DNA of 64,000 nt from the NCBI RefSeq assembly GCF_032193805.1, contig NZ_JAVBIK010000001.1:3121001-3185000 (forward strand), written 5' to 3'. Positions 11,367-47,244 of this stretch are shown one piece after another. The DNA comes from Rhodoferax potami. Lineage in GTDB: Bacteria; Pseudomonadota; Gammaproteobacteria; Burkholderiales; Burkholderiaceae_C. Numbering within the stretch: position 1 is the stretch's first letter; each line of letters begins with the position of its first letter. A program made the position numbers and the translations under genes. The notes under the pieces are model-generated. The model was not told where the DNA came from. It made no database searches and saw only the letters and a program-made list of their open reading frames with translations.

Positions 11367-11377
11367 ACGCTCTGTCA

Positions 11378-11517
11378 TTGGGGAGTAGCCTCTCTTGCAC
11401 CGCAAGAGGCTTGCGTCAACACACTGGGTCCGCAGACCCTGGCGCCAGCAGTTCAGTCTTGGCAAGACCTTTGACCACCGCACATCCGCCTTGGCCGGTG
11501 ATGTGCCGTGGTCATTT
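11378..11517 (+). ncRNA. yybP-ykoY manganese riboswitch leader
   Basis: The leader of the Mn exporter gene carries the conserved yybP-ykoY boxes: TTGGGGAGTAGCC at 11378-11390, GCGTCAACACA near 11412, a central GGGTCC/GGACCC-like helix, TGGCGCC, and GGCAAGACCTTTGACC at 11461-11476. This class binds Mn2+ and commonly precedes MneA/MntP exporters. A long hairpin follows, with arms 11472-11486 and 11500-11514 and one mismatch; its left arm overlaps the last conserved box and it is followed by ATTTGTCTTTT. That is a plausible switching terminator or platform. Exact ends are approximate. Confidence 0.85.
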
Positions 11518-11546
11518 GTCTTTTACCGGCCTTGGAATTTGCGCTC

Positions 11547-12125
11547 ATGGAATCCCTTCTCGTCTCTACCGGTGTGGTCGCTCTGGCCGAAATCGGTGAC
11601 AAAACCCAACTCCTTGCTTTCATCCTCGCGGCCCGCTTCAAAAAGCCATTGCCCATCGTGCTGGGCATTCTGGCCGCCACTATCGTCAACCACGGACTTG
11701 CTGGCGCCTTGGGCGCCTGGATCACTTCCGCCATCAGCCCAGAGGTGCTTCGCTGGGTGCTTGGTGCATCCTTCCTGGGCATGGCGATCTGGACGCTGAT
11801 TCCCGACAAGATTGAAGACGAAGAAACCCATGTTGCAGGCCGCTTCGGGGTGTTCGGCGCGACGCTGATCACTTTCTTTTTGGCAGAGATGGGCGACAAG
11901 ACCCAGATTGCGACTGTGGCCATGGCCGCCCACTACGCGGCGCCGGTGATGGTGGTGATCGGAACCACTCTGGGCATGTTGATTGCTGATGTGCCGGCGG
12001 TGTTTGCCGGCGACAAGCTCGCCAACAAGATCCCGATGAAGCTGGTGCACTCGATTGCTGCGGCCATCTTCGCGGTGCTGGGCGTGGCGACTTTACTGGG
12101 CGCGGGTTCCAGCTTCGGGTTTTAA
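11547..12125 (+). CDS. mneA: GDT1/UPF0016 family manganese exporter
   Basis: A membrane protein of 192 residues with six predicted helices in two repeats. Each repeat carries the family signature: ALAEIGDKTQL in the first and LAEMGDKTQI in the second. Homologues include bacterial MneA (Mn2+ efflux) and eukaryotic TMEM165/GDT1. The Mn2+ riboswitch leader directly upstream strongly supports manganese as substrate. The ATG at 11547 is the first methionine after the leader; the frame is open further upstream but only through riboswitch sequence. Confidence 0.9.
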   Translation: MESLLVSTGVVALAEIGDKTQLLAFILAARFKKPLPIVLGILAATIVNHGLAGALGAWITSAISPEVLRWVLGASFLGMAIWTLIPDKIEDEETHVAGRFGVFGATLITFFLAEMGDKTQIATVAMAAHYAAPVMVVIGTTLGMLIADVPAVFAGDKLANKIPMKLVHSIAAAIFAVLGVATLLGAGSSFGF

Positions 12126-21262: not shown

Positions 21263-21466
21263 GTTGGCTGTCATCTCCGCGCACGAAGGTCTTCGCCAGG
21301 CTTGCAAGAAGCTGAAGACCCCGTGTGCCGAGGGCACTTGCCGAGGGAAAACCCCCACGATTGACGGCACCCGCCTTCCTACAATCGCGCTTGACTATCA
21401 GAGTCCTTGAGGGGCGACTCTATTGCCCCCCAAGCTGGTTACAACACAATTACCGGAGTAAAGCGA

Positions 21467-22546
21467 ATGGATCGTCGTTCAATTATCAAAAACGCAGGCA
21501 TCGCCGGCGTCTTGGCTGCAGGTGCAGCCCCCGCAGTGCATGCGCAGGCCGCCATCCGTTGGCGCCTCGCTTCCAGCTTCCCCAAGGCGCTGGACACTAT
21601 TTTTGGCGCAGCAGATGTGTTCGCCAAGAAAGTGGGCGAAATGTCGGGCGGCAAGTTCACCATCACCACCCACGCTGGCGGCGAGTTGATGCCCGCATTC
21701 GGCGTGGTAGACGGTGTGCAGAACGGCACCGTGGAAATGGCCCACACCGCTCCTTACTACTTCTTCGGCAAGGACGAGACCTTTGCCTTGGGTTGCGCGA
21801 TTCCTTTCGGCCTGAACAGCCGTCAAATGACCGCTTGGATGTACGAAGGCAACGGCGGCAAGCTGATGCGCGAGTTCTACGCCAAGTACAACATCGTCAA
21901 CTTCCCTGGCGGCAACACCGGCGCGCAAATGGGCGGCTGGTACCGCAAAGAAATCAAGTCTGCGGCAGACATCAAAGGCTTGAAGTTCCGCGTGGGCGGC
22001 TTCGCCGGTAAAGTGATTGAACGCATGGGCGGTGTGCCACAAAACATCCCTGGCGGCGAAATCTACACCGCGCTGGAAAAAGGCACGATTGACGCGGCAG
22101 AGTGGGTCGGTCCTTACGATGACCAGAAGCTGGGCTTCGGTAAAGTGGCTCCGTTCTACTACTACCCCGGCTGGTGGGAAGGCGGTCCCCAGTTGGACTT
22201 CTTCATTAACGACAAAGCCTTTGCCGCTCTGTCGCCTGAAAACAAGGCCATCGTTGAAGCAGCTGCATCCTACGCGCACGTGGAAATGCAAGCCAAGTAC
22301 GACGCCCGCAACCCCAAGGCTCTGAAAGAGCTGGTGGGTGCCAAAGTCAAGGTCATGCCTTTCCCGAAAGATGTGTTGGACTTGGCGTTCAAAGAGTCCA
22401 TGGCTCTGTACGCTGAAATCAGCGCCAAGAACCCCAACTGGAAAAAGGTCTACGACGACTACGCAGCCTTCCGCAAGGACCAGAACCTGTGGTTCCGCTT
22501 CACTGAAGCGCGTTTCGACAGCTTCATGCAGGCACAAAAGCTGTAA
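21467..22546 (+). CDS. dctP: TRAP transporter substrate-binding protein (DctP family)
   Basis: A periplasmic solute receptor of 359 residues. The signal begins MDRRSIIKNAG, a likely Tat-type twin-Arg signal, ending near AVHAQAA. The mature part is a DctP fold with the conserved GLKFRVGGFAGKVIERMG segment, whose Arg normally pairs with a carboxylate ligand, and GTIDAAEWVGPYDD. The ATG at 21467 follows CGGAGTAAAG. A strong terminator follows. The matching membrane subunits are about 5 kb away on the opposite strand. The ligand is probably an organic acid. Confidence 0.92.
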   Translation: MDRRSIIKNAGIAGVLAAGAAPAVHAQAAIRWRLASSFPKALDTIFGAADVFAKKVGEMSGGKFTITTHAGGELMPAFGVVDGVQNGTVEMAHTAPYYFFGKDETFALGCAIPFGLNSRQMTAWMYEGNGGKLMREFYAKYNIVNFPGGNTGAQMGGWYRKEIKSAADIKGLKFRVGGFAGKVIERMGGVPQNIPGGEIYTALEKGTIDAAEWVGPYDDQKLGFGKVAPFYYYPGWWEGGPQLDFFINDKAFAALSPENKAIVEAAASYAHVEMQAKYDARNPKALKELVGAKVKVMPFPKDVLDLAFKESMALYAEISAKNPNWKKVYDDYAAFRKDQNLWFRFTEARFDSFMQAQKL

Positions 22547-22570
22547 TCCAGCTCGCGTTTAACCCGCTCC

Positions 22571-22599
22571 AAAAGCCCCGCTCTGCGGGGCTTTTTTTA
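22571..22599 (+). terminator. rho-independent terminator after dctP
   Basis: GC-rich stem AGCCCCGC-TCT-GCGGGGCT followed by seven T residues, 25 bases after the dctP stop. Confidence 0.93.
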
Positions 22600-22777
22600 T
22601 AGTTCCACCAAATACGTTAATGGGCAGGAGACGGAGTGACGAAAGTCACAACCGTCGGACCAAGAAGCGTCTATCTGCGACTTTCTGTTTGGTCGGTCAG
22701 ATGTGATGAACTGTCACGGGCATCAGCTGCTGTTGAGCCCAGTGTCGGCAAAGGGGCGCCTCAACGTAGAATGCCTG

Positions 22778-22835
22778 TCGGGTGTCACAGCGTCATGCTG
22801 GAGGGCAGGTACAGCGAAGGTCGGGCCGCCTCGCG
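22778..22835 (+). promoter_or_regulatory. candidate nhaA-I-type cation riboswitch before the antiporter gene
   Basis: The stretch from the dctP terminator to the antiporter start is about 250 bases without a gene. Its last part carries TCGGGTGTCACAG, a CAGC-GTCAT-GCTG hairpin (22788-22800), GGCAGG at 22804-22809 and CGGGCCGCC at 22822-22830. From memory these blocks and their order resemble the nhaA-I motif (a Li+/Na+-responsive class found before sodium:proton antiporters). The identity of the next gene supports this. I could not run a covariance search, so the class assignment is tentative. Confidence 0.5.
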
Positions 22836-22850
22836 ATTCAATCACGCCCC

Positions 22851-24110
22851 ATGAATTCGCCTACTACTATTCAAATCATTGGCGCCACCCTGTTTGGTCT
22901 GGCTGTCCTCCACACTTTTTCTACCAAGTTTTTTGAGCATCTGGCGCATACGCAGCCACGTCATGCAGGAATCTGGCATTTGCTGGGAGAGGTGGAGGTC
23001 GTATTCGGTTTCTGGGCTTTGGTGCTGGTCCTGTTTATGTTCAGCATCAACGGCAAGTTGGAGGCTACGGCTTACCTCGAGTCCAGAAACTTCACTGAAC
23101 CGATGTTTGTATTCGCCATTATGGTGATCGCAGGTACCAAACCCATCCTCCAGTTTGCAGATGGTTTGGTGCGAACCGTTGCTCGTTTTATGCCGCTTCA
23201 ACGAGGCATGGCACTGTACTTCCTAGTCCTTGCCCTGGTCCCCGTGCTAGGATCATTCATCACAGAGCCTGCAGCGATGACTTTGGCGGCGCTCATTTTG
23301 CGGGATACGCTGTTCTCGCGGGAGACTTCTAATACGCTTAAGTACGGCACTATCGGCGTTCTTTTCGTGAACATTTCCATCGGGGGCACATTAACCCCGT
23401 TTGCGGCTCCCCCCGTTTTGATGGTGGCGGCCAAGTGGAACTGGGACATGTGGTTCATGATCTCCACATTTGGTTGGAAGGCCGCAATAGCTGTGGTCTT
23501 CAATGCAGGCGTCGCCATGCTGATATTCCGCGAACAATTGGGTCATATGGCAGCCAAGCCATCCGTTAAGCCTGTTGCTGTCCCATTTTCTGTGGTGATG
23601 GTTCACCTGTGCTTTTTGGTACTGGTTGTTGTGTTTGCACACCATCCCGTGCTGTTTATGGGTCTATTCTTATTTTTCATGGGATTTACCACGGCCTATC
23701 AGCGCCACCAGAACCCTCTGATCTTGCGTGAGGCTTTGTTGGTTGCATTCTTTCTTGCCGGGTTGGTCGTGTTGGGCGGCCTGCAGCAATGGTGGCTGGA
23801 GCCTGTATTGATGCGCATGGACGCAAACGCGGTATTCTTCGGCGCCACCGCACTCACAGCAATTACAGACAATGCGGCGCTGACGTATTTGGGTTCGCTG
23901 GTAGAGGGATTGAGTCTGGAGTTCAAAACGGCACTGGTGGCAGGTGCTGTCACTGGTGGTGGACTGACATTGATTGCCAATGCCCCCAACCCGGCTGGTG
24001 CTGCAATTCTCAAGGAAAAGTTTGCTGACAATGCCATTCACCCACTTGGACTACTGGTAGGTGCGCTACCCCCTACTTTGGTTGCAGTAATGGCATTTAA
24101 ATTTCTGTGA
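22851..24110 (+). CDS. putative Na+/H+ antiporter
   Basis: A polytopic inner-membrane protein of 419 residues with about eleven hydrophobic segments. It resembles the putative Na+/H+ antiporter family PF07399, with conserved SFITEPAAMTLAALILRD, GGTLTPFAAPPVLMVAAKW and ALTAITDNAALTYLGSLV; the acidic residues in these membrane segments are the likely ion sites. The ATG at 22851 follows a riboswitch-like leader. GC is lower than in the flanking TRAP and dxs genes. It heads a block of ion-related genes. Confidence 0.8.
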   Translation: MNSPTTIQIIGATLFGLAVLHTFSTKFFEHLAHTQPRHAGIWHLLGEVEVVFGFWALVLVLFMFSINGKLEATAYLESRNFTEPMFVFAIMVIAGTKPILQFADGLVRTVARFMPLQRGMALYFLVLALVPVLGSFITEPAAMTLAALILRDTLFSRETSNTLKYGTIGVLFVNISIGGTLTPFAAPPVLMVAAKWNWDMWFMISTFGWKAAIAVVFNAGVAMLIFREQLGHMAAKPSVKPVAVPFSVVMVHLCFLVLVVVFAHHPVLFMGLFLFFMGFTTAYQRHQNPLILREALLVAFFLAGLVVLGGLQQWWLEPVLMRMDANAVFFGATALTAITDNAALTYLGSLVEGLSLEFKTALVAGAVTGGGLTLIANAPNPAGAAILKEKFADNAIHPLGLLVGALPPTLVAVMAFKFL

Positions 24111-24156: not shown

Positions 24157-24645
24157 CTATAGGTGAGCTAGCGGGATGTTACCGGCCCCTTCATCCGCTG
24201 CCAGCACCTCCACCAGTTTCTCTAAGTCCCGGTTGAGGCTCTCCAGGGTTGCCTCATCTAACTGTCGCAGTGCATCAGGCAATACACCCTCAAAGGGTCC
24301 AGGCATTTTTTTAAGTGCCTTTTTTCCCTCTGGTGTTACGCGTAATTCAACGACACGTTTGTCTTCCGCTGACTTCGTTAGCGTGATCAGCTCTTTTTTG
24401 AGCAAGACCTTTATCAAGTTACTTGCGGTGGATTGGTGAATGTCCATCTGGGTGGCAATTTCACCAACGCCCAGTCCGGGGCTCCTCTGCACAAGGCTCA
24501 GTGCCCAAATTTGGGCACCGCCTAGGCCAGTGTCTTTTTCCACTTGCCTAAAGTGGGCTCTGACAGCATTGAACACCACTCGGAACTGCCTTAACGCACG
24601 CGCGGCGTCGTCTGAGTGCTCCATGGAGGGTTGAGATTTTTTCAT
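24157..24645 (-). CDS. MarR family transcriptional regulator
   Basis: A 162-residue winged-helix regulator with VGEIATQMDIHQSTASNLIK as recognition helix and SAEDKRVVELRVTPEG as the wing. It is encoded after the DapB-like gene on the same strand with about 57 bases between. Paired ATACATTTGT boxes in front of the DapB-like and ClC genes are candidate targets. Several ATGs are possible; 24645 (MKKSQPS) is chosen and 24624 is the main alternative. Confidence 0.85.
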   Translation of the reverse strand: MKKSQPSMEHSDDAARALRQFRVVFNAVRAHFRQVEKDTGLGGAQIWALSLVQRSPGLGVGEIATQMDIHQSTASNLIKVLLKKELITLTKSAEDKRVVELRVTPEGKKALKKMPGPFEGVLPDALRQLDEATLESLNRDLEKLVEVLAADEGAGNIPLAHL

Positions 24646-24702
24646 CAGCACACACAAAACGAAGGGCCCCCAATGATACGGTGGCACGTTCCGACGTGGC
24701 AG

Positions 24703-25455
24703 CTAACGGGCGTATCCCTCCAGGATTTGGGCTCTCACTCGCTTCATTAACAAATCTTCAAATGTGTAGAAACCGTTGGAGCAACCTCTAAGCTCATTAA
24801 GAGCAAAAGCAGCGCCGGTACCAAATGCCTCGCGCTTAATGGAGTCGTGAATCAGTCGCACAGTCTGATAGGGGAATCCAAAAATCACCTCGTGGTGCCC
24901 CACGATACCGCCCAAGCGCATGGAAGTGATTTTTTCCCCACCAACGTCAAGACTTTCAGCGATTTTTTTTGCAGTACCTGAGACTTCTGGCTTTTCTCGA
25001 AAGTGTTGCTCCAAGATCTCTACGTCAGCAAACGGTGCTATCTCTCTTAACAGGCGTGCTGCCATGATCAAGAAGTTGATACCAACAGTGATGTTGGGCG
25101 AACACAGCACCTTGGCATGTTGTCCTAGAGTTCGAATATCGGCAAGTTGAGCATCGTCGTACGAGGAAATCGCCGTCACTAAAGTCAGCCCTCTGCGCCG
25201 TATCTCGTCAGCGTAGACTGCTGCCGAAGTAGCATTTGAGAAATCCACCAGCGCATCCACCGGATGCAGATCCAGCCATGTGGAAAGATGATCTTTTGAC
25301 AGCGCGGTCACTGGAACACTGCGGTCGCCCAACGCCACTGTAGTCGGGTTCCCACTGCGCGTGGCAATCCATTGCAATTCATAGCGAGTGTCTTCGCTTA
25401 GCACTTGAGCCACTGCGCTGCCAGCCTTGCCGTATCCAATTAAGCCAACTCTCAT
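24703..25455 (-). CDS. DapB-like NAD(P)-dependent oxidoreductase
   Basis: A 250-residue protein with an N-terminal Rossmann motif (VGLIGYGKAGSAVA) and a C-terminal domain like that of dihydrodipicolinate reductase: SPNITVGINFLIMAARLL and EQHFREKPEVSGTAKK. In the family signature the first catalytic His and the Lys are kept, but the second His is Phe here. The AAGGAG site before the ATG at 25455 is good. The setting, beside ion transport genes and a MarR regulator and with no lysine genes, argues against a housekeeping DapB. The true substrate is unknown. Confidence 0.75.
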   Translation of the reverse strand: MRVGLIGYGKAGSAVAQVLSEDTRYELQWIATRSGNPTTVALGDRSVPVTALSKDHLSTWLDLHPVDALVDFSNATSAAVYADEIRRRGLTLVTAISSYDDAQLADIRTLGQHAKVLCSPNITVGINFLIMAARLLREIAPFADVEILEQHFREKPEVSGTAKKIAESLDVGGEKITSMRLGGIVGHHEVIFGFPYQTVRLIHDSIKREAFGTGAAFALNELRGCSNGFYTFEDLLMKRVRAQILEGYAR

Positions 25456-25482
25456 ACAGGTCTCCTTCCTGGTTGTTGCATT

Positions 25483-25530
25483 AAATACATTTGTGCAAAT
25501 ATAACAAATACATTTGTACCAATGTATAAT
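25483..25530. promoter_or_regulatory. paired MarR-type operator boxes between divergent genes
   Basis: Two related palindromic boxes. Box 1 has ATTTG-TG-CAAAT at 25489-25500, preceded by ATAC. Box 2 at 25508-25527 is ATACATTTGTACCAATGTAT, nearly perfect dyad symmetry. A TATAAT -10 element (25525-25530) overlaps box 2 and would drive the ClC gene. The boxes sit between the divergent DapB-like and ClC genes, so one regulator, probably the neighbouring MarR protein, could control both. Confidence 0.7.
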
Positions 25531-25545
25531 TGCCCCAGTGATCAC

Positions 25546-26878
25546 ATGGATGACCCCCCAATGCGGCAGCACCCTCACATTTACTCTTCTTTCAAAAATG
25601 AACTGTACGATGCCCACCTGTGGAGAGGACGTGCGCTTTTTATCTCATTCGCAGCGTTAGCTGGACTCACCGTAGTCTGCTTTACGTGGCTCACTGAACA
25701 CGCGCTTGCAATATTCTTCAAAGCGCAGAGTGGCTTCTGGTGGGCGCCGCTGGTTTGGACCCCACTGTGCGCCGCAGCTATCGTTTGGATCACAAGGCGC
25801 TATTTCCCGGGTGCAGCTGGCTCGGGTATTCCGCAGGTTATGGCTGCCCAAGACCCGGAAGTCTCCGGCAGCACTCGCGGCCTTTTTGTTTCATTGAGAC
25901 TCGCCTTAGCCAAAATGGTGCTTACCGCGTGGGGCCTCCTGGCGGGTTTGTCTCTTGGCCGCGAAGGCCCCTCAGTACAAATAGCCGCGGGCGTCATGCA
26001 TAGCGTTCGTCGTTGGCTGCCAAAGCGTTCGCAGATCAGCGAACATAGCCTTCTTGTTGCGGGAGGAGCAGCTGGCATTGCCGCCGCATTCAACACTCCT
26101 TTGGGTGGAGTGATGTTTGCCATTGAAGAGTTGACACGTAAACCTGAGCATCGCAACCACGGACTGACCATTGCAGCGATCGTGCTAGCCGGGTTGATGG
26201 GGATATCGGCCTACGGTAACGGCAGTTACTTTGGTGTCATCAGAATCGATGGGTTCGGCTGGAGCGCGTTGCTGCCAGGCGTTATGGTGTCGCTGGCATG
26301 TGGTCTTCTTGGGGGCTTGTTTGCGCGCTTGCTCGTAGTGTCCTTCAGCCGGCAATTCCCTGGACTGGTTCACCATGCAGCGTAAGGCGCGGCCAGTGGC
26401 TTTTGCAGCGGCGTGTGGGTTTAGTGTTGCCGTGATTGGTGTGGTGACGGCAGGGGATACCTTTGGCAGTGGATACGCGCATACCAAAGCTGCTTTAGAA
26501 AATAGTGGCGACACAAACGCTCTATATGTGCTTCTGAAGTTTGTCACGACTTGGCTCACCGCATGGGCGGGTGTTCCCGGTGGTATTTTTGCGCCATCGT
26601 TGGCCATTGGAGGTGCCCTTGGAGGTGACTTCGCGCAATGGACTTCGTATGCCAACCCACCCACCCTCATTGCCTTGGGAATGGCTGCTTTTTTGGCTGC
26701 TGTGACCCAAGCGCCTCTCACTGCGTTCATCATCGTTATGGAAATGGTGGATGGTCATGCGCTGGTGCTGAGCCTGATGGCCAGTGCCCTTTTTGCCAGT
26801 GCTGTGTCGCGCTTGATTAGTGCCCCTTTGTATGCATCGTTGGCAGAGCTACAACTCACACGCCTGCCTAAAGCCTGA
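25546..26878 (+). pseudogene. ClC family chloride channel/transporter, interrupted by a frameshift
   Basis: Two overlapping frames make one ClC protein of about 443 residues. The first half has GSGIPQVMAA and GREGPSVQIAAG, the second anion-site motif with the gating Glu. The second half has GVPGGIFAPSLAIGGALGG (the GxFxP motif). The break is near 26373-26376: deleting one C from CACCATG joins GLVH to MQRKARPVAF. There is no CBS domain, as in bacterial H+/Cl- antiporters. Start could be 25546 or 25561; either gives a very short leader after the -10 element at 25525. Confidence 0.85.
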
Positions 26879-46867: not shown

Positions 46868-47244
46868 GGGGCTGCACTGGTTTCGACACGGGTTCGGACG
46901 CGCAGCAGGGCATGTCGAGCTGAGTGCGCTCGTAAAACAGACTCAAACAAACTAACTGCAAACGACGAACGTTTCGCACTCGCCGCTTAATTGCGCGTGA
47001 GGCTCACAACAGCAAGCCGATAGGCTGGGCAAGGGTGGCGCAAGCTGTCCAGGCTGTGGGCTAATTTCATTCGGCTGGACTCGCCTTGGGTAACTTAGGG
47101 CAGGTCAAGACAATAGGTTACTGGCGTCTTGCATAGCGTGCCACTGCGCGATGTAAGGTGCGAGATTCAAATCAGATGGCTACACATGTAGAACTGTTCG
47201 AAGAAGGCTTGTGGACGGGGGTTCAAATCCCCCCAGCTCCACCA
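46868..47244 (+). ncRNA. ssrA: transfer-messenger RNA
   Basis: A one-piece tmRNA of 377 bases. The 5' end GGGGCTGCACTGGTTTCGAC and the 3' end GTTCAAATCCCCCCAGCTCC-ACCA form the tRNA-like half. The tag reading frame runs from 46958 to 46990 and encodes ANDERFALAA followed by TAA. It rescues stalled ribosomes and tags their products for proteolysis. The 3' end of ssrA is a frequent island integration site, and accessory genes begin just after it. Confidence 0.97.

Follow-up and report, generated by a model that had tools for sequence, protein, structure and literature searches.

A putative nhaA-I (Li+-I) riboswitch upstream of a PF07399 antiporter gene in Rhodoferax potami

Does the short leader in front of a cation antiporter gene of Rhodoferax potami carry an ion-sensing riboswitch, and if so, to which ion does it respond and how many genes does it serve? 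An initial annotation of a stretch of 64,000 nucleotides from this bacterium (the window in the following), made from the letters alone, had proposed a lithium/sodium riboswitch of the nhaA-I class at this place. The nhaA-I motif was reportedly described in a paper of 2017. The class as such is already known, and the present locus is an ordinary additional member.

The aptamer and its antiporter gene

The following features of the locus are discussed below.

22571-22595, + strand: intrinsic-terminator-like hairpin (11 pairs, 7 of them G-C, followed by a T run)
22745-22772, + strand: sigma-70-like promoter TCGGCA-16-TAGAAT (9 of 12 positions agree; chance alone would give 1.1 such sites in the scanned region)
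22780-22833, + strand: nhaA-I (Li+-I) riboswitch aptamer (Rfam RF03057, 44.6 bits, model positions 1-55 of 55)
22784-22786 with 22804-22806, + strand: lower P1, GUC with GGC (G-C, U-G, C-G), read from the sequence against the consensus structure
22787 and 22801-22803, + strand: internal loop of P1, A opposite GAG, from the same reading
22788-22791 with 22797-22800, + strand: upper P1, CAGC with GCUG, from the same reading, with which the unaided fold agrees
22814-22834, + strand: P2, GCGA (22814-22817) with UCGC (22831-22834) and A22818 bulged, from the Rfam alignment and the fold of 55 nt
22819-22820 with 22829-22830, + strand: top of P2, GG with CC, then U22821-G22828 and the loop CGGGCC (22822-22827)
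22819-22830, + strand: GGUCGGGCCGCC core; all 104 leaders kept, window included, agree in its first 11 bases
22845-22850, + strand: CGCCCC just before the start codon, where some relatives have CGACC (14 nt past the core), from which the window departs
22851-24110, + strand: Na_H_antiport_3 (PF07399) antiporter of 419 aa (637.8 bits, profile positions 1-419 of 419)

When the 64-kb window was scanned against Rfam, the leader matched RF03057 at 44.6 bits, above the curated cut-off of 37 (E 1.4e-5), which bears out the class proposed in the initial annotation. Three matches in the window exceeded their cut-offs, namely tmRNA, a manganese riboswitch and nhaA-I. In a permissive scan of 22500-23100 (E up to 10), nhaA-I ranked first of 15 matches and was the sole one over its cut-off; the Na+-I (DUF1646) motif, which is similar in its two-stem layout and antiporter-type genes (PMC9337991), was not among these 15, provided that the searched Rfam library includes it, as we assume. 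The whole genome (4,008,616 bases in 3 contigs) contained a single nhaA-I match (E 2.1e-7). The sequence elements that had been pointed out were also recovered in the order claimed: GGGTGTCAC at 22780-22788, CAGC at 22788-22791 with GCTG at 22797-22800, GGCAGG at 22804-22809 and CGGGCCGCC at 22822-22830.

The conserved GGGUG start, the CAGG linker and the GGUCGGGCCGCC P2 loop are all intact in the window, as judged from the Rfam alignment and the comparison of cores in 104 leaders. P2 is able to form fully, and its lower three G-C pairs are standard in 88-90 of the 104 leaders. P1 can be drawn if one of its pairs is U-G and an internal loop is allowed; folding the 55 nt unaided yields P2 and the hairpin of CAGC with GCUG and leaves the lower GUC/GGC pairs unformed in that register. 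In comparison to other members of the class, P1 of the window is short and imperfect, and three bases of its 3' strand (GAG) are unpaired; alike are the full model with P1 and P2, the 5' GGGUG, the CAGG linker, the core, and the cation antiporter gene directly downstream. The folding energy is unremarkable (z 0.94; an equal or better energy is reached by 169 of 200 shuffles), so that energy alone would not reveal the aptamer; the support for the riboswitch is the covariance model and the conservation, not thermodynamic stability. On these grounds of sequence, we regard 22780-22833 as a genuine nhaA-I riboswitch, followed by the partner gene that is usual for it in Burkholderiaceae_C.

The ATG of the antiporter (22851) lies 17 nt past the aptamer end, and no terminator-like site was found between the aptamer (22833) and the gene. 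By eye, no Shine-Dalgarno stretch was visible before this ATG. The longest open reading frame opens with GTG 22782. This codon lies within the aptamer, and the PF07399 match already begins at residue 6 of the protein counted from ATG 22851; GTG 22782 was therefore rejected as the start. Besides PF07399, DUF1646 matches the protein weakly (23 bits against a cut-off of 21.4). No NCBIfam model matched it at E up to 0.001, and phmmer found no significant relative of solved structure (best E 0.41). PF07399 has been listed with the families of the Ion Transporter superfamily by HHpred (PMC10372470). The window gene thereby differs from the NhaA antiporters (PF06965), which are given as the commonest protein partner of the class in the main text of PMC9646797.

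The antiporter had also been taken for the first gene of a block, and this could not be upheld: the MarR family gene that comes next (24157-24687) runs on the opposite strand, and the antiporter therefore looks like a single-gene unit, in which the riboswitch would tie one gene to the signal.

Ligand, mechanism and alternative readings

According to the main text of PMC9646797, nhaA-I is a Li+-activated class that was tested experimentally with reporters and in-line probing and named Li+-I. RNAs of the class bind Li+ with a KD of about 30 mM, Na+ acts on them at about tenfold higher concentration and is preferred in rare variants alone, and the authors speculate that most members work by ribosome access (PMC9646797). 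Of the lithium/sodium signal suggested initially, lithium therefore stands as the published ligand of the class, whereas sodium does not, given the roughly tenfold higher concentration needed and the rarity of Na+-preferring variants.

The reading that we prefer, with a probability of roughly 0.85, is that the RNA in the window acts as a Li+-I (nhaA-I) riboswitch to switch on translation of the PF07399 cation/H+ antiporter. We infer Li+ binding by this RNA, its gate and the export of Li+ by the antiporter. The first G of the aptamer, give or take one or two bases, would be the transcription start. At low Li+, the fold of P2 and its loop would not be held, and the region before the start codon would be paired with segments of the aptamer. 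Toxic (millimolar) Li+ would stabilise the aptamer and free the start region, so that the antiporter would be made, which would then pump Li+ out of the cell.

The antiporter belongs to a Pfam family distinct from NhaA proper, and no PF06965 (NhaA) match was found in the genome of R. potami at E up to 0.001. The genome has three PF07399 genes, and only the copy at 22851-24110 has a riboswitch; upstream of the two others (loci L091 and L115) nothing in Rfam was found at E up to 0.1. With the switch before a single PF07399 copy and no PF06965 match, this is a clean case in which to ask whether that copy exports lithium.

A different ion would be sensed if the RNA had the nhaA-I fold but were of the Na+-II type, which senses Na+. 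The antiporter would then serve sodium or pH balance, not lithium defence; we consider this unlikely. Na+-sensing nhaA-I variants exist (PMC9646797), and the weak second match of the antiporter is to DUF1646, the family that gave its name to the Na+-I class (PMC9337991). However, the published Na+ variants with terminators were found only in Deltaproteobacteria, and the tested one has a C where most nhaA-I RNAs have a U (main text of PMC9646797). The window shares the overall fold of the Na+-II RNAs, but it lacks a terminator-like site in 22833-22851, and the nearest named relatives of its gene, among the best 80 of 267, are Betaproteobacteria (Rhodoferax). Its core has the common bases, an argument that holds if the published C-for-U site (position 54 of the D. 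propionicus RNA) is one of them.

A decayed aptamer that no longer switches, with the gene driven by its promoter alone, appears very unlikely to us. It would fit the score of the window, which falls in the lower part of the family score list, the lower P1 of three pairs, one of them U-G, that is absent in the unaided fold, and the downstream block described below, which departs from CGACC. In addition, among the five genomes listed for the genus, nhaA-I was found in R. potami only and in none of the other four. Against decay, the core, invariant among the leaders, is intact in the window together with the GGGUG start and the CAGG linker. Furthermore, the nearest named relative of the antiporter (92% identity, among the best 80 of 267 PF07399 relatives), from Rhodoferax sp. 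TH121, is preceded by the same core despite a different P1.

A chance resemblance with no RNA function, which the unremarkable folding energy might suggest, is hardly credible in view of the E values (1.4e-5 over 64 kb against all of Rfam, 2.1e-7 genome-wide) and of a site that is intergenic, on the correct strand and immediately followed by a cation antiporter gene, an arrangement shared by 38 of 47 matches in the family sample.

Promoter and downstream block in related leaders

The terminator-like hairpin stands between the upstream DctP gene (21407-22546) and the riboswitch, and the -10-like hexamer TAGAAT (22767-22772) of the candidate promoter lies 7 nt upstream of the aptamer's first G. 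In ordinary promoter geometry, a transcript starts shortly downstream of the -10 hexamer, which would here be at the first bases of the aptamer. In 97 of 101 leaders, a TANNNT hexamer has its first base 17-11 nt ahead of GGGTG, compared with a mean of 5.8 and at most 13 in shuffles; the base of this count is the leaders with GGGTG and sufficient sequence, 15 of which carry GGGTG twice. Because the position of the -10 hexamer is fixed across leaders, the mRNA probably has its 5' end at the first G of the aptamer, to within one or two bases. This promoter feature lies outside the Rfam model.

A second recurring element was found downstream of the aptamer. The leaders compared were 96 family matches and 11 others, of which 104 were kept, window included; L203, L211 and L259, all below the cut-off, were dropped for lack of aptamer context, and the likewise sub-cut-off L077, L202, L209, L210 and L258 were retained. 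In the dropped L203, a C replaces the U in the core. CGACC stands exactly 14 nt past the GGUCGGGCCGCC core in 25 of the 104 leaders (mean 0.2, maximum 3 in 1000 shuffles, a significance overstated by the relatedness of the leaders) and in 19 of 91 after thinning. In the 91 thinned leaders, columns 14-18 past the core carry 0.44, 0.58, 0.10, 0.50 and 0.58 bits with the consensus CGACC, and the flanking columns 6-13 and 19-35 at most 0.29 bits. The middle base of the block is thus poorly conserved, and exact CGACC is absent from 79 of the 104 leaders. The block is the exact complement of GGUCG in the core. Between the two, GCGG occurs at offset 2 in 62 of the 96 family leaders; P2 forms without the last G of this word, which completes a CCGC-CNC-GCGG hairpin.

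The pairing of CGACC with GGUCG is a plausible gate over the translation start in these relatives, as far as their sequences and predicted folds suggest. The register has a mean probability of 0.114 in 101 leaders in comparison to 0.009 in shuffles, and a probability above 0.5 in 9 of these leaders (shuffles: 9 of 1212) and in 9 of the 25 with exact CGACC. Nine leaders were folded individually, the window and eight picked by hand, seven of the latter with CGACC. The pairing is contained in the minimum-energy fold of L023, L076 and L254 and comes within 0.1 kcal/mol of it in L072; it is not the best fold in L062, L018, L005, L252 or the window. The case for the GGUCG-CGACC pairing consists of complementarity and position, as an invariant core cannot covary.

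A role of the block in initiation is kept as a possible rival reading to the gate, in view of the counts by distance of the start codon: among 38 confirmed PF07399 loci, offset-14 CGACC was found in 5 of the 12 that have their ATG at offset 19-21, in 5 of the 24 with a more distant ATG and in 0 of the 2 with a nearer one. These 10 of 38 compare with 15 of 66 among the remaining leaders. In the 25 nt before the start, CGACC occurs in 12 of the 38 HMM-confirmed PF07399 leaders with the switch versus 0 of 31 scored PF07399 leaders without it. In 7 of these 31, core-like patterns (up to 3 mismatches) were seen, taken as GC-rich background and left out of the counts. A loose peptide pattern also takes at least four leaders (L022, L024, L025 and L066) for which there is no PF07399 match, and the counts rest on the 38 confirmed loci. 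In five nhaA-I leaders outside this pattern (L064, L073, L237, L242 and L246), the core is followed by GCGCAC or GCGCAA, and offset 14 does not carry CGACC; this subgroup may have a different expression platform.

The window itself gives no support to a GGUCG gate in the predicted folds. With its block CGCCC, the pairing to GGUCG is broken in the middle and has a predicted probability of about zero, and the pairing of the block to the core (0.035) is below the shuffled mean (0.086). In its minimum-energy fold, P2 is kept and GGGC (22803-22806) pairs with GCCC (22846-22849), an anti-P1 arrangement from one prediction. Blocks of the GCCC type are weakly above chance in the leaders (12 of 104 against 4.2; 9 of 104 at a control offset).

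Two other partners of the block were considered. Pairing with the 5' GGGUG, which CGCCC would allow, was set aside for the family, since the base counts of the block fit GGUCG better (base 2 is G in 67 of 96; base 3 is A in 41 and C in 23), and is kept as a candidate for the window. Pairing with the CAGGU linker was likewise set aside, as the few CAGGA leaders, compared by eye, showed no matching change in the block.

Taken together, Li+-I switches of Beta- and related proteobacteria might share a built-in gate outside the Rfam model, made up of an mRNA that starts with the aptamer and a CGACC at GGUCGGGCCGCC+14 that folds onto GGUCG; we offer this tentatively, at somewhat less than even odds. 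CGACC would then break P2 and cover the start region until Li+ holds P2, the CCGC-CNC-GCGG hairpin would sit between the core and CGACC, and a minority including the window would use a CGCCC or UGCCC block pairing with other G residues of the aptamer. The recurring block and the fixed promoter would give a concrete, testable account of an ion-sensing RNA coupled to translation. Neither a downstream block nor a promoter at the aptamer start is mentioned in the text consulted from PMC9646797 and PMC9337991; we make no claim that these are unpublished.

Distribution among relatives and neighbouring features

Among 200 genomes of the same family, nhaA-I was found in 47 (46 over the cut-off) and PF07399 in 67 (66 over the cut-off). 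Directly downstream of 38 of the 47 nhaA-I matches, on the same strand, lies PF07399, whose match starts at a distance of 33-114 nt; at 114 nt, a sub-cut-off PF07399 piece stands behind a sub-cut-off aptamer. The view that this antiporter family is an uncommon partner of the class did not hold, and pfam07399 is in fact listed among the NhaA proteins in the main text of PMC9646797. In an enlarged family sample of 399 genomes, 93 had nhaA-I (92 over the cut-off). The switch is rarer beyond the family, with 7 of 369 genomes of the class (3 of them from the family) and 16 of 398 of the phylum (7 of them from the family); the large genome searches used stricter filters, and weak matches may be missed.

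For 23 of the 80 named PF07399 relatives (the best 80 of 267), the aptamer core lies no more than 170 nt upstream. The search had matched 24, of which L179 was rejected (2 mismatches, no GGGTG) and counted as lacking the switch. In a tree of these relatives and the window protein, the switch is present in 24 of 42 members of one main half and in 0 of 39 of the other. It requires 9 changes on the tree, compared with a mean of 20.9 for shuffled labels, and the well-supported branches force at least 3, so the switch was gained or lost more than once.

Of the 81 PF07399 rows in the family (fragments included), 43 have no nhaA-I, and a hidden different switch was considered for these. When 40 upstream stretches were compared with all of Rfam, nothing at E up to 0.1 was found other than one sub-cut-off nhaA-I match (L098, 27.1 bits), and the idea was dropped. 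The 40 stretches stand for 41 of the 43 rows, as L116 serves both pieces of one split gene, and L117 comprises only 261 bases; two rows were omitted, one a sub-cut-off piece and the other the 3' part of a split gene that carries the switch before its 5' part. The nhaA-I-like leader L098 (G022:C6:142771-143540, positions 514-564) precedes a PF07399 gene and has its core changed to GGTAGGGGCGCC; it may be either decaying or a variant of changed specificity.

Further observations concern other parts of the window. Beyond the MarR family gene, a DapB-like protein (24703-25617, - strand) scores 92 against the NCBIfam dapB cut-off of 122 and is perhaps a related dehydrogenase and not the enzyme of the lysine pathway. 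A gene for a CLC chloride channel lies in two overlapping frames on the + strand (25522-26385, Voltage_CLC positions 2-186; 26375-26878, positions 197-346), which reflects either a frame change or a sequencing error. The manganese (yybP-ykoY) riboswitch (11368-11540, + strand, 92.7 bits) directly precedes an open reading frame with ATG 11547 (inside the frame 11508-12125), the product of which we take to resemble the UPF0016/Gdt1 family, a usual partner of this riboswitch. The tmRNA gene lies at 46868-47244 (+ strand, 186.5 bits).
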